A stretch of DNA of 64,000 nt from Candidatus Kuenenia stuttgartensis (lineage in GTDB: Bacteria > Planctomycetota > Phycisphaerae > Phycisphaerales > SM1A02), in contig CAMDMA010000002.1 in NCBI GenBank assembly GCA_945902075.1, forward strand, positions 62,001 through 126,000, in the 5' to 3' direction. Below, piece by piece: positions 24,417-37,209 of the stretch (position 1 is the stretch's first letter; each line of letters begins with the position of its first letter). A program made the position numbers and the translations under genes. The notes beneath the pieces were generated by a model that was given only the letters and a program-made list of their open reading frames with translations, did not search any database and had not been told where the DNA came from.

Positions 24417-25784
24417 TTGTCTCCTTCTACGCACCACCGTTCTTCTTCCTCGCCCGCAGTTCATGCAGCCGTTGTCGGCCTCCAATGGGGCGATGAGGGC
24501 AAGGGCAAGATTGTCGACCTCCTCACCTCGCGCTACGACTGCATCGTGCGATACAACGGCGGCGCGAATGCCGGGCACACCGTGCAAGTCGGTACTGAGC
24601 GTTACGCGCTGCATCTCATCCCCTCTGGCATTCTCGGCAGCGGAAAGATCAACATCGTCGGGAACGGCGTCGTGGTCGATCCGGAAAAACTCCTCGACGA
24701 GGTCGACGGACTCCGCAAGCGCGGGGTGCATGTTGGCGACAATCTGCGTATCTCCGATCGCGCCCATGTGGTGATGCCCTACCACAAGGAGCAGGACGCC
24801 GCGCTTGAAGAACTGCTTGAGAAGAAGTCTGGCAAGTCGGGAGCAGGGCAGATTGGTACCACGCGTCGTGGCATCGGCCCTGCGTATTCCGACAAGGTTC
24901 GCCGATCGACCGCATTGCGCATGGGCGACCTCCTCGACCACGCGCTTCTCCTCCGAAAGCTCGAGACGATTTGCGGCCTTCGCATGGCTGAACTCGAAGC
25001 GCTTGGCGCAAGCGTAACCCCGCTCATTCCTGAACAACTCGCTGCGCGCTTCGCTGCCGCCGGAGAGCGGCTGCGTCCACACATCACGGACACCGTCTAC
25101 CTCGTTCACGATGAAATCAACGCCGGGCGGAGCGTGCTCTTCGAGGGCGCGAACGCGTGCCTCCTCGATATCGACCACGGGACATTCCCCTACGTCACGA
25201 GTTCGAACTGCTCGACGCTCGGCATCCCCGCTGGCTCTGGCGTCCCGGGTCGCATGATCGGCAAGGTCTATGGCATCATGAAGGCCTACTCGACCCGTGT
25301 CGGTGGCGGACCCTTCGTCACCGAGTTGCTTGACGAAACCGGCAACCGCATTCGCGCGCGCGGCCGCGAGTACGGAACCACGACGGGTCGCCCGCGTCGG
25401 TGCGGCTGGCTTGATCTCGTGGCTGTGAAATACTCCGTGATGGTCTGCGGTGCCGACGCGATCGCGTGCACCCTGCTTGACGTACTGAGCGGCTTTGATG
25501 AGCTCAAGATTTGCGTGGGCTACCGTCGCCCGGACGGCAGCGTGACAGATCGCTTCGTTCCCGATGCCGAGCGCATGAACGGGTTCACCCCCATCTATGA
25601 AACGCTTCCGGGTTGGGAGCGCGAACTCACCGCGTGTACCGATCGCGACGACCTCCCGCGCGAGGCTCAGGCGTACCTCGGATTCGTGGAGAATTTCGTC
25701 GGAATCCCGGTCGAGCTCGTCAGCGTCGGCCCTGAGCGCTCACAGACTTTCGAATCATCGCAGCGCTTTGCCGCGGCGCACTGA
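24417..25784 (+). CDS. purA: Adenylosuccinate synthetase
   Basis: 455 residues. It couples IMP and aspartate with GTP hydrolysis to make adenylosuccinate. The start is unusual: no ATG or GTG lies in frame before the conserved GLQWGDEGKGKIVD P-loop, so TTG 24417 is the best candidate. Other blocks are NGGANAGHTV, QIGTTRRGIGPAYSDK, LFEGANACLLDIDHGTFPYVTSSN, TRVGGGPFVTEL and GTTTGRPRRCGWLDL. Length is slightly above the usual 430 because of the Ser-rich leader and a small insertion near 165-205. It is followed by uppS after 11 bases, probably co-transcribed. Confidence 0.97.
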   Translation: MSPSTHHRSSSSPAVHAAVVGLQWGDEGKGKIVDLLTSRYDCIVRYNGGANAGHTVQVGTERYALHLIPSGILGSGKINIVGNGVVVDPEKLLDEVDGLRKRGVHVGDNLRISDRAHVVMPYHKEQDAALEELLEKKSGKSGAGQIGTTRRGIGPAYSDKVRRSTALRMGDLLDHALLLRKLETICGLRMAELEALGASVTPLIPEQLAARFAAAGERLRPHITDTVYLVHDEINAGRSVLFEGANACLLDIDHGTFPYVTSSNCSTLGIPAGSGVPGRMIGKVYGIMKAYSTRVGGGPFVTELLDETGNRIRARGREYGTTTGRPRRCGWLDLVAVKYSVMVCGADAIACTLLDVLSGFDELKICVGYRRPDGSVTDRFVPDAERMNGFTPIYETLPGWERELTACTDRDDLPREAQAYLGFVENFVGIPVELVSVGPERSQTFESSQRFAAAH

Positions 25785-25795
25785 CCACTTCGCTC

Positions 25796-26605
25796 ATGGA
25801 ACCGCCCGTTGCATCCGTTCGAACCAGCGCGGCAGAGACCGCCGGGGCGCTTGTCGGCGTTCCCCGTGAGCGTTGGCCGCGACACATAGCGTTCATCATG
25901 GATGGCAACGGTCGATGGGCAGAGGCGCGCGGGCTCCCACGCGTCGCTGGGCACCGTGAAGGGGTCGATGTCGTGCGTCGGATCGTGACCGAGTCGGCGC
26001 GCCTTGGGCTTGAGGTGATCACGCTGTACTCATTCTCGAGCGAAAACTGGAAGCGCCCGGCCGACGAGGTTTCCGCGCTGATGCTCCTTTGTGCAGAGTT
26101 CCTGCGACAGGAGCGACCAACCATGGTGCGGGAGAACATTCGTTTCCGGCGGATCGGGCGCCGCGATGGGCTTCCGTCTGACGTCCTAGAAGAACTCGAT
26201 CGGACCGAACAGGTCACCTCCGGTCACACCGGACTCACGCTCTGCCTCGCACTCAATTATGGTTCCCGGACTGAAATCGCCGACGCCGCGCGCGCCCTCG
26301 CACGCGAAGTGGCCGATGGCACACGATCGCTCGACTCGATCGACGAGCACGCCATCTCGAGCCGCCTCTACACAGCGGGCCTTTGCGACCCCGATCTTCT
26401 CGTTCGGACTGCTGGCGAAATGCGGGTGTCGAATTACCTGCTCTGGCAAATCTCCTACGCCGAACTCCACGTCACCTCCGTGCTTTGGCCAGACTTCTCG
26501 GTCAACGATCTCTCCACCGCGATCGCAGCCTTCGCTGGGCGCGAGCGGCGGTTCGGCGCGGTTCTCCCGCCGAAGGGCGAACTGGGCGCAACATGCGGCG
26601 GATAG
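25796..26605 (+). CDS. uppS: Undecaprenyl diphosphate synthase
   Basis: 269 residues. It is the cis-prenyltransferase that makes the C55 carrier for peptidoglycan and other envelope glycans. Motifs: HIAFIMDGNGRWAEARGLPR (catalytic Asp in MDGNGRWA), GHREGVDVVRRIV, TLYSFSSENWKRPADEV, LALNYGSRTEI, DPDLLVRTAGEMRVSNYLLWQ and ELHVTSVLWPDF. About 25 extra residues precede the core. The gene begins 11 bases after purA. Confidence 0.97.
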   Translation: MEPPVASVRTSAAETAGALVGVPRERWPRHIAFIMDGNGRWAEARGLPRVAGHREGVDVVRRIVTESARLGLEVITLYSFSSENWKRPADEVSALMLLCAEFLRQERPTMVRENIRFRRIGRRDGLPSDVLEELDRTEQVTSGHTGLTLCLALNYGSRTEIADAARALAREVADGTRSLDSIDEHAISSRLYTAGLCDPDLLVRTAGEMRVSNYLLWQISYAELHVTSVLWPDFSVNDLSTAIAAFAGRERRFGAVLPPKGELGATCGG

Positions 26606-27059: not shown

Positions 27060-29897
27060 ATGTACTCCACCTGCCGCTTCAAAGCGCTTACCACCCTCGC
27101 CTCTGCCATCGCCCTCGCTGGCATTCCTGCGTCGTTGGCGTTCCGCGATTCCAACCGCGAAGTTGCGATTGTCGATCCAGCGCTTGCGAAGCTTGGCATC
27201 CAGGATGCGCGCGAGCTCTCCGCTGTCGATGCGCTCCCAGGCGCCGACCTCCGTTGGGATTTTCCGCGCCTTGATGCAGCACAACTCGAAATCGGTCAGA
27301 GCCTCACGTTCCTGCTGCCTGGGTTTCGCACCATCGAGATTCCGCTCGTCGATCGCATGCTGATCGCGCGCGATGCTGTTTCGTTCACGTTCGCCGATCC
27401 GACCATCGGCGCGAGCGCGGAGATCGTTGTCCACGCTGGCCTTGTATCGGGAACGATCCGCGCGCAACTCGCCACGGGTTTCGAGGCATGGGAACTCACG
27501 ACCGGCACCGATCGCTTCGGCATCGGTGGCGATTGGTACACGCCGGCAATCGACAATGTCATGATCGATCCACCGGTGGCGATGGAAGGAAATCAACTCG
27601 GTGAACCCGAAAGCGAAGGCGGTATCGCTGATGCGGGTTGTGAAGATACTGGCGCGTTCATCGATGTACTGGTGGCGTACACGCCGGGGTTTTTCGCGGG
27701 CTTCTCGTCCCTCGAGGCGATGAAGACGCTTGTCCTCGCAGATATCGCGCGCGCCAATGCTGGTCTTACGAATTCAAACGCGATTCCACGATTCCGTGTC
27801 GCGGGTTACTACGCGTGCCCGCAAAATTCAACCGGCGATGTCACCAGCGACCTCACCCGCTTGCAAGCTCCAACGGACGGTTGGAACGACGGCGTTCATG
27901 CTGCGCGCAACGACGCGCGCGCCGATCTCGTGATGCTGTTTGACCCGCCATCCGTCGCTGGTGGCGGCACGGCGTTTCAAGGAATCGCGGGGGGTTCGGC
28001 TACCGGTTTCTCGGTCAACGCCGCGCCAAACAGTTTCATCGCCGCTCGACTCCTCGGACTCAACATGGGTGCGTGTTTCGAGTCGTCATCGCCCGCCGCC
28101 TGCCCCGGCTATTTTCCCTACGCACACGGATTCATCTTCCGGCCACTCGGTGTTGCGGTCGACTACGGAACGATCATGGTCAATGCCGCGGTCGTCACGC
28201 AACCGATCTTCTCAAACATTTATGTCGACTGGATGGATACCGCGACTGGCTCAGACCTCGCGAATAACGCACGCACACTGAGCCTGACCGCGAACAATGT
28301 TGCGAACTACCGCTGTAGTAACGGCCCCGACGCTGATTGCGACAACGATGGCATCCTCGATGCAGATGCCATTGCTACGGGTCTTGTTCCCGACTGCAAT
28401 CGCACCGGACTCCCCGACAGTTGCGACATCGCGATCGGTATCAGTATTGATCTCAACAATGACGGTGTGCCCGACGAGTGCCCCCTGACCGACACGGAAT
28501 TCGGTCTAACTGGCGTTGTGCAACTCGACACCTTCGGAACAAGCGTCTCGCTTTCCGCGAAAGCCGCAGACCCCACGATTCTTCTCGGTATCGGTGCCCC
28601 TGGTGACGACACAGGTGCCTCGAATGCGGGTGAAGCGTTTGTTGTCGACGCAACTGCCGGCATCCTTGATGCCTCGAGCGCCGCGACTCTGCGTCCGCAC
28701 GACCCGATCACGAACTCGTACTTCGGCCGCTCCATCTCGGTATTCAAACGCCCATCGAGCCTGCTCCCCGCGTACCCCGCGCGCAACCTTGCACTCGTTG
28801 GCGCGTTCCGTTGGCCACAGTCCACGACATCGGGCAACTACCCGTCGAAGGGCGCGGTCTATCTGTTTGAAGAGAAGCCTGATGGAACGTGGGGCGCTGT
28901 AATGCAGCCAAACACAACCGGCCCCGCCACACCGTGGCGTTTCTCGCCAGCAGGTTCGGGCGGCTACGGCACGCAGAGTTATGCGCTGTTTGGTTACGCC
29001 GCGGAGATCGGCCATGCGGCGGTTGAAAATTCCGACATCATCGTCGTCGGTACACCGGGTCATGATGAGGCGAAGGGCGCGGTGTTCATCGTGCGCAATC
29101 CGTCGTTGAATGTGTCGACGTCCGTCAGGAGGGATCAGCCGATCGTGAGTCGGCGCGATGTACTTGTGGGCGCGCAGGCTGGCGACAATTACGGTGCAGC
29201 GATTGCACTCGAAGACAACTTGCAAACATCCGGCGCCTCGCGCGTCGTGTTTGTTGCCGGTGCTCCCGGGACAGCGGACGGGAGAGGCGCTGCCTACATC
29301 CGTGAACGCGCCGCCTCAACCAACGGCTTCGGAACAACCTGGCCAACCAGCTTTGGCTACAACTTCCCGATCAACAACCCCGTCGGTGCAGGTGCGCCGC
29401 TCGCGGCTGGCGATCGCTACGGCACTTCGGTTGCGATTTCGCAGCGACTCGTCGTGGTCGGCGCCCCCGGAACGGGCGGCGGTAAGGGACGCGTCCACTT
29501 CTGGGAACGGAATGATTTGTTTGGAACATCCGGCCGCTGGAATTACCGCGGCTTCTTCACCCTCGATGATCCGATGGTCGAGCAGTTCGGCTCCTCGGTC
29601 TCAATCGCGCCGTCGATGGTCGCCAACGAATTCACCGTGATCGTCGGCGCTGCCAAGGCGGATGTCCAAGTCGGCTCAACCCTCAAGGTTGACGCGGGTG
29701 CGGTCTTCGTACTGAAGAAGGTGTTTGGTACGTCCGGTGCGACACTTGTGGAGCGCCGAACCTCAAACGCGCCAGTTTCTGGCGACGAATTCGGCTACTC
29801 AACCACTGCTCTTCAAGGCTTCTCACTCATCGGCGCACCCTTCAAGGACAGCGGCGGACTCAACGCTGGAGCCGCGAAACTTCTCACGACCCCTTGA
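27060..29897 (+). CDS. Secreted reprolysin-like pseudo-protease with FG-GAP repeats
   Basis: 945 residues with an N-terminal signal-like helix (LTTLASAIALAGIPASLAF). A propeptide-like region is followed by a domain (about 198-418) built like M12B-type metalloproteases of bacteria: IDVLVAYTPG, a TNSNAIPRFRV strand, ARADLVMLF, HGFIF, YGTIMVN, PIFSNIYV and ANNARTLSLTANNVANYR. At the place of HExxHxxGxxH the residues are RLLGLNMGACF (330-340), so all zinc ligands and the general base are missing. Next are Asp-rich TSP3-like loops (about 420-475), then about seven FG-GAP units to the end (TFGTSVSL, YFGRSISV, NYGAAIAL, RYGTSVAI, QFGSSVSI, EFGYSTTA with paired G-A-P turns), forming an integrin-type propeller. 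A surface binding role is inferred. Confidence 0.85.
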   Translation: MYSTCRFKALTTLASAIALAGIPASLAFRDSNREVAIVDPALAKLGIQDARELSAVDALPGADLRWDFPRLDAAQLEIGQSLTFLLPGFRTIEIPLVDRMLIARDAVSFTFADPTIGASAEIVVHAGLVSGTIRAQLATGFEAWELTTGTDRFGIGGDWYTPAIDNVMIDPPVAMEGNQLGEPESEGGIADAGCEDTGAFIDVLVAYTPGFFAGFSSLEAMKTLVLADIARANAGLTNSNAIPRFRVAGYYACPQNSTGDVTSDLTRLQAPTDGWNDGVHAARNDARADLVMLFDPPSVAGGGTAFQGIAGGSATGFSVNAAPNSFIAARLLGLNMGACFESSSPAACPGYFPYAHGFIFRPLGVAVDYGTIMVNAAVVTQPIFSNIYVDWMDTATGSDLANNARTLSLTANNVANYRCSNGPDADCDNDGILDADAIATGLVPDCNRTGLPDSCDIAIGISIDLNNDGVPDECPLTDTEFGLTGVVQLDTFGTSVSLSAKAADPTILLGIGAPGDDTGASNAGEAFVVDATAGILDASSAATLRPHDPITNSYFGRSISVFKRPSSLLPAYPARNLALVGAFRWPQSTTSGNYPSKGAVYLFEEKPDGTWGAVMQPNTTGPATPWRFSPAGSGGYGTQSYALFGYAAEIGHAAVENSDIIVVGTPGHDEAKGAVFIVRNPSLNVSTSVRRDQPIVSRRDVLVGAQAGDNYGAAIALEDNLQTSGASRVVFVAGAPGTADGRGAAYIRERAASTNGFGTTWPTSFGYNFPINNPVGAGAPLAAGDRYGTSVAISQRLVVVGAPGTGGGKGRVHFWERNDLFGTSGRWNYRGFFTLDDPMVEQFGSSVSIAPSMVANEFTVIVGAAKADVQVGSTLKVDAGAVFVLKKVFGTSGATLVERRTSNAPVSGDEFGYSTTALQGFSLIGAPFKDSGGLNAGAAKLLTTP

Positions 29898-29964: not shown

Positions 29965-32946
29965 ATGCGCATCACACGACTCATCACCACGCTCGCCATT
30001 CTGTTCTCGGCAGGCCTTGCCTCGCTCCTCACAGCGAGCACAGTCCATGCCCAGGCCGCCTGCGGCGACGCGCCGAACGACTGCTTCACCACCAATCTTT
30101 TCGGTGGCGGATGCAGCAACCCAATCTGCTGTTCACTTGTCTGTACTGCTGAGCCCGCATGTTGCGACATCGCATGGGATGATGTCTGCGTCGCGCTCGC
30201 CGAGAAGTACTGCTCCGACTGTGGGCTTGTGAAGGACTCGTGCTTCGAATCCCACGCAACGCCGTCCTGCAACAATGGCGCGATCTGCGAACTTGTCTGC
30301 GCAACGCCCGGATACGAAGCGTGCTGCGACGTGCGGTGGGACGAAGCTTGCGTTCGCCGCGCCGTCGCATTGACCGCCGACTGCGGCCTGCCCGCGACCG
30401 GCTCGTGCGTCGTTGTGCACGAAAATCCCAACTGCCGTGATGCCGAATGTTGCCAGACTGTGTGCGCCATCGACCCACGCTGTTGCGATCTGACTTGGGA
30501 CCAGGCTTGCGTGAATTGGGCGGAGCGCTTCTGCATCACCTGCGGAAACCCACGCGCCGGCAGTTGCTGCCACTCGCACCAAGGCCCCCACTGCGACGAC
30601 CTGGTGTGCTGCGAGGCCGTCTGCACGATTGACCCGTTTTGCTGTGAGACTCGCTGGGACTTCGACTGTGCACGCCAAGCGTCCTCAACCACGATCTGCA
30701 ACATTCCAAGTTGCCGATGCGGCGAGGGTGGTGCTGAGGCTTCGTGCCGCGCCGTGCATGAAAACCCAGGCTGCAACGATCGCATCTGCTGCGACGAGGT
30801 CTGCTACTTCGACAACTTCTGCTGTGAGGCGGAGTGGGATTACACCTGCGTCCAGATGGCACTCGCCCGTTGCGCGCTTTCGCCGAGTCCGATCATCAAC
30901 GGTATTTGCGAAGATGCGACTGGAAGCTGCTTCGTCGATCACACCGGCCGTGGCTGCTCGGATGCTGCATGCTGCGCGCGGATTTGCCAAATCGATATCA
31001 CCTGCTGCGATGCCGTCTGGGATGCAGACTGCGCGGCACTCGCTCGAGTGAACTGCAACGGTTGCGGCGACATTGATGCCGGCAGTTGCTACTACCCGCA
31101 CGGCACACCGTCATGCCTTGATCGCACATGCTGTGACGCGGTCTGCGATATCGATCCCTCGTGTTGCGACATCGAATGGGACATCTTCTGTGTGATCAAC
31201 GCTGGCACCTACTGCCTTGATACCGTGATTACCTGCGGCGACCCGCGCGTTCGACCATGCGCGGTCGCGAGCTATCTCCCAGCCTGCGCCGACGAGGAGT
31301 GCTGCGCCTACATCTGCAACTCACTCGACCCCACTTGCTGCTCGCGCGGTTGGGACGAGACATGCGCTGCCAACGCCGTCTATGTCTGCGACCTCGGCAT
31401 CAACAACTGCCCCGCCACCGGTTCGCCACTTGTTGCGCACGGTACGCCAGGCTGCTCCGATGAACTCTGCTGTGCCGCCGTCTGCTCGATTGATCCTTTG
31501 TGCTGCTCATTCGGTTGGAGCGCAGAGTGCGTGCGCGTCGCGAAGGGCGTGTGCGTGACCTTTGGCGATTGTCCTGGCGCAGGCCCATGCGACGCGACCC
31601 ACGCGACGCCAGGCTGTGAAGACGCAACCTGCTGCACCATCGTCTGCCAGAATGATCCATTCTGCTGCGAAGTGAGTTGGTCGAGTTCGTGCGCCCAAGC
31701 AGCGCGCGCGCTCTGCGTCCCACGACCGTCATGGCCGTGCCCGTGCAACGGAAGTTGTTTCGAAGCGCATCCTGAGACTGGCGGCTGTAACGACGAGGTT
31801 TGCTGCTCGGGCGTGTGCAATATCGATCCACTCTGCTGCACGCAGAGTTGGGACGAAGGCTGCGTCACCATCGCACGAGTGACCTGCTGTAACTACCCCG
31901 GCTGTGGTGACATCTGTACGGGGAGCTGCCTTGTGCCCCACCAGACTCCGTTCTGTGATGACGCGTCGTGCTGCGAGGCGGTCTGCCGCTTCGAGCCCTA
32001 TTGCTGCGATGTTCGCTGGGACTCTTCGTGCGTTCTCGAAGCACGCCGAACGTGTCTCGGAGGTTGCGGACTCCCCGTCAGCGGTAACTGCTTCAACGAG
32101 CACGACCTCCCCGGCTGCAACAATGGCGACTGCTGCAGCAGCGTGTGTGCAGCAGAGGAGTTTGAGTATTGCTGCCTGACCAGCTGGGATTCCAACTGCG
32201 CTGATCGTGCGCGCAAACTCTGCGTAGACGATCTCCCAGAGTGTGGCCGTATCGGTCTGCCTGGCTGCAACATTCCTCACGACAGCCCATCCTGCGGCGA
32301 TCAAGATTGCTGCGAGGCGATCTGCAACATCGACGATTTCTGCTGCACCAACGAGTGGGACAGCGCATGCGTGGCGTACACCTATACGACCGCCGGCTGC
32401 GAGCGTTACCAAGCCGAGTGTGGCGGCGCGTGTGCGGGCTCGTGCTGTGAGCCTCACCTCGCCCCATGGTGTAACGATGAAGCCTGCTGTGATGCGATCT
32501 GCTTGATCGACATCTTCTGCTGCACGACGGAATGGGATGCGTTCTGCGCCCAATCCGCGCGTCAGAACACGGCTTGCAATGTCGCTTGCCCCGATCCCAA
32601 GTGTGGTACGCCCGAGGCTGGCAACTGCTGCGTCCCGCATGACAATGCCAACTGCAACGATGCGACCTGCTGCGACACCGTCTGTGCGACCGACCCGACC
32701 TGCTGCAATGTCGTCTGGGACGGTATCTGCGCTTCGATCGCCAATGCGGAATGCGACAACTGCGGCGGCGGATCAAGTTGTGGGGCGGCGGATGCAGGCT
32801 CGTGCTGCAACGAGCACGAAACGACGCCGTTCTGTGACAACGCCAAGTGTTGCGTTCTGGTCTGCTCGCTCGACGAGACCTGCTGCATCGACGGGTGGGA
32901 CACCACCTGCGTAAAGCTCGCGCAGATTCTCTGCGGTTGCGATTGA
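29965..32946 (+). CDS. Secreted protein of 17 cysteine-rich modules
   Basis: 993 residues from ATG 29965, which opens a clear signal peptide (MRITRLITTLAILFSAGLAS, cleavage after VHAQ). The rest consists of 17 repeats of about 50-60 residues with the core CCxxVCxxDPxCCxxxWDxxCVxxA, each preceded by a G-S-C...H...PGCxD half. The Trp-Asp pair and the CC pairs are kept in nearly all copies; modules 9 and 10 have W-S instead of W-D. Cysteine content is extreme, so the protein must be disulfide-linked outside the cytoplasm or bind metal. No named family is claimed. It follows the reprolysin-like gene by 67 bases and is closed by a strong terminator, so the two may be one transcript. Confidence 0.9.
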   Translation: MRITRLITTLAILFSAGLASLLTASTVHAQAACGDAPNDCFTTNLFGGGCSNPICCSLVCTAEPACCDIAWDDVCVALAEKYCSDCGLVKDSCFESHATPSCNNGAICELVCATPGYEACCDVRWDEACVRRAVALTADCGLPATGSCVVVHENPNCRDAECCQTVCAIDPRCCDLTWDQACVNWAERFCITCGNPRAGSCCHSHQGPHCDDLVCCEAVCTIDPFCCETRWDFDCARQASSTTICNIPSCRCGEGGAEASCRAVHENPGCNDRICCDEVCYFDNFCCEAEWDYTCVQMALARCALSPSPIINGICEDATGSCFVDHTGRGCSDAACCARICQIDITCCDAVWDADCAALARVNCNGCGDIDAGSCYYPHGTPSCLDRTCCDAVCDIDPSCCDIEWDIFCVINAGTYCLDTVITCGDPRVRPCAVASYLPACADEECCAYICNSLDPTCCSRGWDETCAANAVYVCDLGINNCPATGSPLVAHGTPGCSDELCCAAVCSIDPLCCSFGWSAECVRVAKGVCVTFGDCPGAGPCDATHATPGCEDATCCTIVCQNDPFCCEVSWSSSCAQAARALCVPRPSWPCPCNGSCFEAHPETGGCNDEVCCSGVCNIDPLCCTQSWDEGCVTIARVTCCNYPGCGDICTGSCLVPHQTPFCDDASCCEAVCRFEPYCCDVRWDSSCVLEARRTCLGGCGLPVSGNCFNEHDLPGCNNGDCCSSVCAAEEFEYCCLTSWDSNCADRARKLCVDDLPECGRIGLPGCNIPHDSPSCGDQDCCEAICNIDDFCCTNEWDSACVAYTYTTAGCERYQAECGGACAGSCCEPHLAPWCNDEACCDAICLIDIFCCTTEWDAFCAQSARQNTACNVACPDPKCGTPEAGNCCVPHDNANCNDATCCDTVCATDPTCCNVVWDGICASIANAECDNCGGGSSCGAADAGSCCNEHETTPFCDNAKCCVLVCSLDETCCIDGWDTTCVKLAQILCGCD

Positions 32947-34188: not shown

Positions 34189-34566
34189 CGCGGCAGCGTA
34201 ACTCTCGCGACGACCTGTCGGGAACTGTCGACCCACGAAGATCCGCGCTGCGAAGCGAATCCCGCGTATAACGCCGTGATGCTCCAGAGCGGTTGCTTGG
34301 CAACACCTCCTCGCTTGACCCTGCTCGACCCAAGCTCTGCGAGGAGAATCCAGTTTTTACTCACCGAAGCGGACAGTCCGTGCGCGCACGCCTCTCGACC
34401 CGCGCCAACACGCACCCGCGCGACCTTGCGGTCGAACCTCATTTTTGTCAGCCTTTTGTCTGCTGTTGGTGCCATTGCTCTCCACGCTGCGCCAACGACG
34501 GGCTCTCTCGCCGCCCAGGCGCGCGTTCCGCCGGGGCACTTCGAAGCCCGTGTAGAGGAGAGTGCG
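34189..34566. other. 378-base divergent upstream region
   Basis: Lies between the methyltransferase and the lectin/RCC1 gene, so both promoters should be here. The frame of the right-hand gene is open back through this region and reads a second hydrophobic stretch (LIFVSLLSAVGAIALHAA), but the downstream ATG 34567 has the better ribosome site and its own signal peptide. No other structure was seen. Confidence 0.5.
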
Positions 34567-36213
34567 ATGCGTAAGAATCCGAAGTCGTTCGCCATGGCCG
34601 CAGCCGCGGCGCTGTCCGTTGCCACCGGAGCCGCAGCGCAGGACGCCGTCCAATGGCGCGTCGAGGATGGTGGGAATGGGCATTGGTATGCGACGCTTGG
34701 CGAGGTACATCACTGGCCTGAGGCCCGAGCGCGCTGCGAGCAACTGGGCGGTTACCTCGCAACACTCACGTCAGCCGCCGAATGGTCGTGGGTGGTAACT
34801 GCAACGAATATCGAGCACGGGTATGTCGGCGGCTATCAGGATGCGTCGGCGAGTGACTACGAAGAGCCGTACGGTGGTTGGCGATGGGTGACCGGTGAGC
34901 AATTCGCGTTCAACAGCATCTCGATGCTTCCATTCGATGATTGCCCCGGCGCCGCTCCGGCATCGTGCGTTTGTGGTTCGGGCGCTCAGGATGTTCTATT
35001 TGCAATGGGCTGCTGTGGTCACATGATGAACGACAGTCAGGATGGGACGTCCTTCGACTGCAACATGGCGGGCGAGGTTCCTTACCCCCCTGTTGATTCG
35101 CTTATCGAATGGTCCGCCGACTGCAACAACGATGGGCTGGTCGACTACGGTCAGATCCGCGCGGGCGAACTCGAAGACACGAACGCGAACAACATTCCCG
35201 ATTGCTGCGAGGGACAGCTCGTCTCGTGGGGCGACAACTCTCTCGGCCAATCAACCCCACCGATCCTTCGTGCGCCGATCGACTCAATCACTGCGGGATA
35301 TGACCACAGCGCGTGTCTGCTCACCGACGGGACGGTGCTTGTGTGGGGCTACAACGCCTTCGGGCAACGCGATGTGCCAGCCAACCTTCAGAATGTCGTT
35401 CAGATTTCCGCGGGTGATCGTTTCATGCTCGCCCTACAAGCGAACGGCGTCGTACGCGCATGGGGATTCAACGACTACGGCCAATGCAATGTTCCTGCGG
35501 ATCTCCCCTTCGTCGTCAAGATCTCTGCAGGTGGCAATCACAGCATGGTTCAGTTGAGCGATGGGACACTGCGCTGCTGGGGAAACAACACAAGCGGAGA
35601 ATCTACGGTGCCGACCGATCTTGGATCGGTGAGCGTGTTTGAGGGTGGCGTCTACCACTCGATCGCTGTCACCACATCGAGCCTCATCCGCTGTTGGGGT
35701 CTCGACGACTACGGCCAATGCACACCACCCAAAGCAATCACCACTGCAGTCGCCGTGAGTGGTGGCGATCGCCACTCGGTCGCACTACTCGCAAACGGAT
35801 CCGTGCGCTGCTGGGGTCAGAACACTTATGGTCAATGCACGCCCCCTACCGATCTTCCGCCGCTGACAGCGATTTCCGCAAGTGATCGCTACACACTGGG
35901 ACTCACGACGGCAGGTCGGGTTGTGCCATGGGGCGTAGAAATCGGCCAAAGCCCTAGCTCAGGCACCATTTGCACAATGATCGCGGCAGGCGCGTACCAC
36001 GGGATTGCCGCGCTTGAGCAGGCGGAGTGCCCAATTCCTTGCGCTGCCGACGTCACTGGCAACGACAACGTCGATGCGGCGGATCTTGCGGCAATCCTCA
36101 GCGCGTGGGGCGGTGCGCCGACGGGTAAGGCGAACGCCGATGTGAACGGCGACGGCAGCATCGATGCGGCAGATCTCGCCGCGGTGCTGAGTTCGTGGGG
36201 CCCCTGTCCGTGA
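34567..36213 (+). CDS. Secreted C-type-lectin / RCC1 / dockerin protein
   Basis: 548 residues from ATG 34567 (GAGGAG six bases upstream). Order of parts: signal peptide (MRKNPKSFAMAAAAALSVAT to about 24), a C-type-lectin-like domain (about 36-135: YATLGEVHHWPEARARCEQL, GGYLATLTSAAEW, GGYQDAS, GGWRWVTGE), and Asp/Asn loops DCNNDGLVDYGQ and DTNANNIPDC. Six or seven RCC1-type propeller blades follow (about 212-450, each with WGDNxxGQ or CWGxNxxGQ and AGxxHS). Finally comes a dockerin-like pair, DVTGNDNVDAADLAAILSAW and DVNGDGSIDAADLAAVLSSW. Exported and probably cell-surface; carbohydrate binding is inferred from the lectin fold only. Its stop overlaps the start of the next gene, a sigma factor. 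Confidence 0.88.
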   Translation: MRKNPKSFAMAAAAALSVATGAAAQDAVQWRVEDGGNGHWYATLGEVHHWPEARARCEQLGGYLATLTSAAEWSWVVTATNIEHGYVGGYQDASASDYEEPYGGWRWVTGEQFAFNSISMLPFDDCPGAAPASCVCGSGAQDVLFAMGCCGHMMNDSQDGTSFDCNMAGEVPYPPVDSLIEWSADCNNDGLVDYGQIRAGELEDTNANNIPDCCEGQLVSWGDNSLGQSTPPILRAPIDSITAGYDHSACLLTDGTVLVWGYNAFGQRDVPANLQNVVQISAGDRFMLALQANGVVRAWGFNDYGQCNVPADLPFVVKISAGGNHSMVQLSDGTLRCWGNNTSGESTVPTDLGSVSVFEGGVYHSIAVTTSSLIRCWGLDDYGQCTPPKAITTAVAVSGGDRHSVALLANGSVRCWGQNTYGQCTPPTDLPPLTAISASDRYTLGLTTAGRVVPWGVEIGQSPSSGTICTMIAAGAYHGIAALEQAECPIPCAADVTGNDNVDAADLAAILSAWGGAPTGKANADVNGDGSIDAADLAAVLSSWGPCP

Positions 36214-37093: not shown

Positions 37094-37209
37094 ATCAAGA
37101 CCGAGAGATCAAGACCGAGAGATCAAGACCGAGAGCTCAAGACCACGAGCTCAAGACCACGAGCTCAAGACCACGAGCTCAAGACCACGAGCTCAAGACC
37201 ACGAGCTCA
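37094..37209. repeat. 14 bp tandem array, eight units in two sequence classes
   Basis: ATCAAGACCGAGAG occurs three times (37094, 37108, 37122), and CTCAAGACCACGAG then occurs five times (37136 to 37205), followed by a 4-base remnant. Within each class the copies are identical. It lies between the sigma gene and speA, downstream of both. Confidence 0.96.

Follow-up and report, generated by a model that had tools for sequence, protein, structure and literature searches.

The array gene and its modules

Within the window, that is, the whole 64,000-nucleotide stretch analysed, an ORF on the forward strand starts with an ATG at position 29965, and its stop codon ends at 32946. The ORF list and the translation give a product of 993 aa; a sequence-only reading of the same DNA had the strand and both ends of this gene right. 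The protein contains 179 cysteines (18% of its residues) and consists of 17 modules in tandem, each about 55 aa long (53-61 aa), followed by a short tail, GCD. Its mature chain is acidic, with 137 D+E against 40 K+R. On the same strand upstream lie two genes that we take from their sequences to be purA and uppS, the latter an envelope gene, and, 67 nt before the array gene, a reprolysin-like gene. The module boundaries are our own cuts, the first of which overlaps the leader by one residue; residue numbers follow the 55-position profile of the module.

24417..25784, + strand: presumed purA, syntenic landmark (named from sequence)
25796..26605, + strand: presumed uppS, syntenic landmark (named from sequence)
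27060..29897, + strand: reprolysin-like neighbour; strong match to FG-GAP_2, sub-threshold match to Reprolysin
29965..32946, + strand: array gene, 17 modules, 993 aa, 179 Cys (ORF and translation)
29965..30057, + strand: signal-peptide-like leader (by eye; similar leaders in orthologues)
30055..30213, + strand: module 1, 10 Cys
30214..30375, + strand: module 2, 8 Cys; lacks C24 and C52
30376..30534, + strand: module 3, 10 Cys
30535..30699, + strand: module 4, 11 Cys (odd); extra C11
30700..30873, + strand: module 5, 11 Cys (odd); extra N-terminal Cys
30874..31056, + strand: module 6, 10 Cys
31057..31215, + strand: module 7, 10 Cys; modelled singly and with 6 and 8
31216..31389, + strand: module 8, 10 Cys
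31390..31554, + strand: module 9, 9 Cys (odd); lacks C10, keeps C19; WS replaces WD
31555..31716, + strand: module 10, 10 Cys; WS replaces WD
31717..31887, + strand: module 11, 11 Cys (odd)
31888..32055, + strand: module 12, 12 Cys; most conserved module genus-wide
32056..32223, + strand: module 13, 10 Cys
32224..32400, + strand: module 14, 10 Cys
32401..32577, + strand: module 15, 12 Cys
32578..32754, + strand: module 16, 12 Cys
32755..32934, + strand: module 17, 12 Cys
32935..32943, + strand: C-terminal tail GCD, bearing the odd 179th Cys (module cuts)

An alternative cut rule gives 9 cysteines each to modules 2 and 3. The protein looks exported, as had been proposed: its leader, a putative signal peptide, has a signal-peptide-like counterpart at the equivalent position in the genus orthologues, judged by eye in every case.

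The sequence-only reading ascribed to each of 17 modules the core CCxxVCxxDPxCCxxxWDxxC, with two CC pairs and a Trp-Asp. Its count holds, in that a relaxed core and a profile each gave 17 matches in the protein, and all 17 modules carry the relaxed core. The strict core occurs exactly in only 5 of the 17: modules 9 and 10 have WS for WD, in module 2 the opening cysteine of the N-terminal CC pair is missing, and several modules lack DP. The tryptophan W40 is itself invariant across the window modules, as are C19, C25, C29, C35, C36 and C44. We use the name CC-WD module family, coined here, for segments with C19, C29, C35-C36, W40 and C44 in about 55 aa, a combination present in all 17 modules.

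Searched as a DNA pattern, VCxxDPxCCxxxWDxxC matched five times in the window and never in 100 dinucleotide shuffles of it, a frequency far above chance. Tandem Repeats Finder reported 14 rows in the window, none of them inside the array gene, and the mean identity among modules is 39%; the repeat is detectable at the protein level only. A recent duplication or an assembly artefact was rejected as the origin of the array, given the lack of a DNA-level tandem repeat, this mean identity and the occurrence of 17 modules in 11 of 11 genus genomes.

Predicted fold, cysteine conservation and pairing

AlphaFold2 predicted each modelled module as three short helices. For module 7 alone the model had a pLDDT of 94.0 and a pTM of 0.77, with helices at 22-31, 34-37 and 42-51; for modules 6-8 together, nine helices were predicted with a pLDDT of 92.6 and no residue below 70, while the pTM of 0.68 leaves the angles between modules uncertain. 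The single-module prediction suggested with the sequence-only reading thus yielded a confident three-helix model. (The module triplets of set A5 are 113 of the 151 available.) Directly before the three predicted helices stand D21, D32 and D41, which are D in 64, 81 and 91%, respectively, of 564 unique profile matches.

Searches for a known family returned little. The whole array protein had no match in Pfam-A or NCBIfam at E 1, and ten single modules had no meaningful match in Pfam-A. A set of 106 diverse modules (A2: all 17 window modules plus 89 of the 90 chosen from the loci) had no match in NCBIfam; in Pfam-A it met three mutually unrelated families, through one member each, at E 0.03-0.08. 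No relevant match for the module was found among PDB sequences, where two matches to 4-hydroxy-2-oxoglutarate aldolase at E 0.3 were taken as chance. Foldseek, run with the models of one and of three modules, found nothing in the PDB at E up to 10, a search that small folds can escape; a fold search of BFVD gave four matches at E 0.8-3.9. No description of the module was met in the literature searched, a scope outside which subscription journals and preprint servers lie. The module, with no meaningful match to a described domain in Pfam-A or NCBIfam and none by Foldseek in the PDB, has no entry in the copies of Pfam-A and NCBIfam searched; its recurrence within this genome and across others, given below, shows it to be a real family.

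Several known cysteine-rich proteins offer partial likenesses. Granulin is built of stacked beta-hairpins; progranulin resembles the array protein as a chain of small CC-rich modules in an exported protein, but differs in fold from the CC-WD modules, which are modelled as three helices, and none of the 106 modules matched the Pfam granulin family. Secreted phospholipase A2 and ShK domains contain short helices tied by CC-type motifs, a likeness drawn from general knowledge; the 106 modules had no Pfam match to either at E 0.1, and Foldseek gave no such match in the PDB. The cysteine-rich repeats TIGR02232 (myxo_disulf_rpt) and DUF4215 share 2 of 62 host proteins with the module, but none of the 106 modules matches them.

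Eleven genus orthologues, with mature chains 53-88% identical, show how unevenly the protein is conserved. Invariant positions make up 176 of the 179 cysteines and 19 of the 20 tryptophans, versus 199 of the 784 other residues (25%). All eleven have 17 modules by profile and an odd number of cysteines (179 in ten, 181 in L183), and all keep the single cysteine after the last module. One further stretch of the 12 fetched, L184, holds no full array and is outside this set. With dN at 0.17-0.28 and dS at 1.5-2.3, near saturation, in four comparisons, cysteine and tryptophan are nearly fixed and most other residues drift under purifying selection. Outside the cysteines, mean identity is highest in modules 11 and 12 (0.68 and 0.69; 0.47-0.66 in the others). 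Within the genus the length and order of the array are fixed; its ends vary. The same-numbered module was the best match for 17 of 17 modules in L158 and again in L071, for 12 in L170 (where the cutting pattern missed one module and split another twice), for 8 in L130 and for 1-2 in L133, L120 and L150.

Profile iteration gave 825 matches, 564 of them unique, in the loci examined. Gaps apart, W40 and C44 are never replaced in the unique matches, and C35 is kept in 99%. For counts of joint loss, one sequence was kept per group of more than 80% identity and gapped rows were removed, which reduced the 564 to 416, 447 or 446 rows; these are counts of rows, and independent events are fewer. C29 and C36 are lost jointly in 10 of 446 non-redundant rows and singly in 3 (phi 0.87, p 9e-18), five of the ten belonging to one divergent variant. 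C24 or its substitute C27, which stands in for it in a CVC variant, is absent from 8 rows, all without C52, whereas 27 of the 438 others have no C52 at the usual position (p 6.5e-10); five of the eight rows are module 2 from this genus. From this natural co-loss we infer the disulfides C29-C36 and C24 (or C27)-C52. Within the genus, only two cysteine positions are lost in a single row, both in L183 and seven residues apart. They correspond to C29 and C36 within a single module, so that the pair proposed from the wider family is lost together here too.

Our guess at the remaining pairs is C10-C19, C35-C44 and C2 with either C25 or C11. C10 and C19 gave a phi of 0.58 at first count, a joint loss that shrank to 2 rows once slips were allowed, and module 9, which lacks C10 yet has C19, speaks against that pair; owing to the divergent variant, C10 also tracks C29 (7 rows) and C36 (5 rows). 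With three rows lacking C35 and none lacking C44, C35-C44 is likewise a guess. C11 is present in 126 of 147 rows without C25 versus 61 of 299 with it, a mutual replacement. A maximum matching of the cysteines chose C10-C35, C19-C25 and C2-C44 instead, differing from our guess for six of the ten cysteines; these pairs were set aside because few or no losses occur at the residues concerned. Of 299 tandem segments, 93 contain an odd number of cysteines. In 11 of 11 orthologues modules 4 and 5 contain 11 cysteines apiece, and wherever the cuts permit counting there are 9 in module 9 and 11 in module 11; these constant odd counts hint at bonds between modules, and the extra N-terminal cysteine of module 5 may possibly bond to module 4.

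The count of pairs proposed with the sequence-only reading gives two pairs by co-loss, the others being tentative. The broader idea of a new, heavily disulfide-bonded extracellular repeat domain gains from the near-absolute conservation of cysteine, the pairwise losses and the lack of a family or PDB fold match, which support it short of proof. The alternative then offered, metal binding, is made less likely by the pairwise loss of two sets of cysteines and by the placement of D21, D32 and D41 just before predicted helices.

Profiles for DSBA, Thioredoxin_4, DsbB and VKOR had no match at E 0.001 in the array's own genome, which is 97% complete, and the controls were positive. VKOR matched in 10 of 41 relatives, 9 of them over the cut-off and 2 of these among 25 own-family genomes; Evr1_Alr had no match, and none in the controls either, which makes its absence uninformative. 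Unless a different oxidase is at work, the disulfide reading will have to be revised.

Distribution and genomic context

The own genome contains 36 module matches in 11 ORFs, 17 of them in the window ORF and 1-4 in each of the other ten. A profile of the 17 window modules, searched as had been proposed, matched 34 of the 61 genomes of nearest relatives, the own genome included; these were 34 of 37 genomes of the own family, while the 24 genomes representing the order's other families gave no match. One of the three unmatched family members (G033) gains a weak match with the 106-row profile. In a draw across the class, 53 of 298 genomes matched, 19 from the own family, 24 from another (f19) and 10 across four more, and in a draw across the phylum 2 of 294, both from this genus. 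A motif scan of genome contigs found at least 119 stretches, some on shared contigs. By their titles, the matches listed include at least 60 planctomycete stretches, at least 49 labelled Myxococcota or Deltaproteobacteria and at least 10 unassigned or (once) Limnohabitans. The distribution is patchy, dense in the own family and one more and common among Myxococcota-type labels, and the domain, going by these labels, extends beyond the planctomycetes. Among Myxococcota-labelled loci, L081, L160, L135, L102 and L145 encode proteins with 6-12 modules.

The scan of host proteins covered 47 of the 50 ORFs labelled Myxococcota or Deltaproteobacteria and 62 of the 83 others, the latter including unassigned contigs and two viral-collection loci. 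Domains found in those 62 proteins included Dockerin_1 (12), GBD_T9SS_assoc (9), Peptidase_S8 (4), Lectin_C (3) and Reprolysin_5 (3). Modules 7-8 gave nothing by tblastn against plasmid and phage collections at E 0.001, and a plasmid or phage origin was rejected on this result; three IMG/VR contigs (L172, L173, L174) do carry the motif, although they could be cellular DNA. L172 encodes a 107-aa module ORF with, by eye, a dockerin-like tail.

The reprolysin-like gene is the array's neighbour in all nine genus loci examined, L175-L183, and likewise in L071. The order purA, uppS, reprolysin-like gene, array is found in 8 of the 9; in the ninth, L182, the array is beside uppS and the contig ends before purA. 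In L185 and L186, from other genera of the same family, and in L120 the array is beside or between uppS and purA, and in L150 it is beside purA, but the stretches examined of L185, L186 and L120 had no match to the reprolysin-like gene. Neither uppS nor purA occurs in the short stretches of L130 (8 kb) and L133. Across L175-L183 and L071 the array is better conserved (54-76% identity) than the reprolysin-like/FG-GAP protein (43-60%). Elsewhere in the window, 34540-36213 encodes one protein with RCC1 repeats, Dockerin_1 and a sub-threshold C-type lectin, whose first 225 aa turn up again close to the array in L177, L178 and L181, and 37095-37209 holds a 14-base tandem repeat (8.2 copies, 97% matches).

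An N-terminal extension precedes the array in L185, L186, L120 and L150 (cut), and L130 has a 17-module array without one. The extensions of L120 and L186 are related (34% identity, E 2e-51). That of L185 has a domain, here 'LNEIR', matching one repeated in L008, a module protein of the own genome (29%, E 5e-26); to us these look like lamin-tail domains, a name that Pfam did not confirm. Dockerin_1 is sub-threshold in the array relatives L186, L120 and L133 (E 0.005-0.02, Pfam) and unmatched by Pfam in L185 and L150; the window protein has neither dockerin nor cohesin, with no Pfam match at E 1. A galactose-binding-like domain lies at the C-terminal end in L133 (E 9e-7) and, below the cut-off, in L185 (E 2.5e-4). 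The array proteins of L176, L185 and L186 have basic or proline-rich tails, unlike the acidic array.

A cohesin/dockerin 'planctosome', with a lamin-tail anchor and an M12B peptidase, has been proposed in freshwater Phycisphaerae (PMC6461901), and the orthologue L071 comes from ZH-13MAY13-plancto44, listed there as a MAG. Several module proteins recall it through dockerin matches, 'LNEIR' domains or the adjacent reprolysin-like gene. The word 'cysteine' is absent from the main text of that paper, where the model includes no cysteine-rich spacer such as this array, and the text of a second paper (PMC11266412) contains neither 'cysteine' nor 'dockerin'. The YTV wall proteins mentioned in PMC8567305 are likewise cysteine-rich envelope proteins of planctomycetes; the array protein has no family match to them.

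Possible roles of the array

We consider it reasonably likely that the gene product is an exported acidic rod of 17 disulfide-locked three-helix modules serving as a structural spacer, a function deduced from these features. Each module would adopt the three-helix fold predicted for modules 6-8 and be locked by the C29-C36 and C24 (C27)-C52 disulfides indicated by co-loss. With less support, nearly all remaining cysteines may also be paired, some perhaps between modules; consecutive modules may form a semi-stiff spacer; and this may act outside the cell, separating partner domains and resisting proteases. A load-bearing, protease-resistant spacer would fit a protein in which cysteine and tryptophan are nearly fixed and the rest drifts, with length and order fixed in the genus and variable ends. 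Because the array of L185, L186, L120 and L150 is preceded by an extension with an LNEIR domain and, where visible, a dockerin-like part, it looks like a stalk carrying a functional part at its front. The proteins of this genus lack such a part, and their lone C-terminal cysteine could link two chains. A bolder version, which we hold to be unlikely, makes the protein a covalent surface strut with about 89 disulfides per chain, chains joined by the C-terminal cysteine; it would form the stalk in an extracellular protease complex of dockerin type and be oxidised by an export-pathway enzyme other than DsbA, DsbB or VKOR.

A multivalent adhesin or ligand-binding array, whose modules would attach to a glycan or protein carried by particles or by other cells, seems to us fairly improbable. 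In its favour, each module stays recognisable by its place in the array, non-cysteine conservation peaks in modules 11 and 12, and modules co-occur with lectin and galactose-binding-like domains; against it, most of the non-cysteine positions conserved across the family (W40, D21, D32, D41, V28, A48) are plausibly structural, and H14, P17 and G18 (58, 69 and 61%) are left over as residues that could form a site. We think it distinctly unlikely that the protein is a disulfide-rich wall or surface structural protein, a counterpart of the YTV proteins of other planctomycetes. Its cysteine content, its leader, the odd C-terminal cysteine that could cross-link chains and the neighbouring envelope gene would suit such a role, but it lacks any Pfam match, and the occurrence of the module in protease and lectin proteins and in Myxococcota-labelled genomes means that the module is not wall-specific.

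The constant same-strand presence of the reprolysin-like gene in the genus and L071, together with the small, cysteine-rich tandem modules, could suggest a multi-headed protease inhibitor, comparable to inhibitor domains found in tandem in other proteins, targeting the product of that neighbour. This is very improbable, as the gene is unmatched in the examined stretches of L185, L186 and L120 and modules occur inside proteins with protease domains. We give least credence of all to a metal-binding or metallothionein-like sink. High cysteine content, CC pairs, acidity and the lack of a canonical thiol-oxidation family in the own genome would be in keeping with it; against it stand the loss of cysteines in pairs, which lowers any metal-binding reading, the confidently predicted helical fold with no low-confidence stretch, and the export leader.

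The exported spacer that we favour raises the question of how 179 cysteines in one exported chain are oxidised in a genome with no match to DSBA, DsbB or VKOR. The protein of this genus is unusual in its exactly kept set of cysteines. An entry for the module itself would name a part found in many exported proteins, including proteases and lectins.
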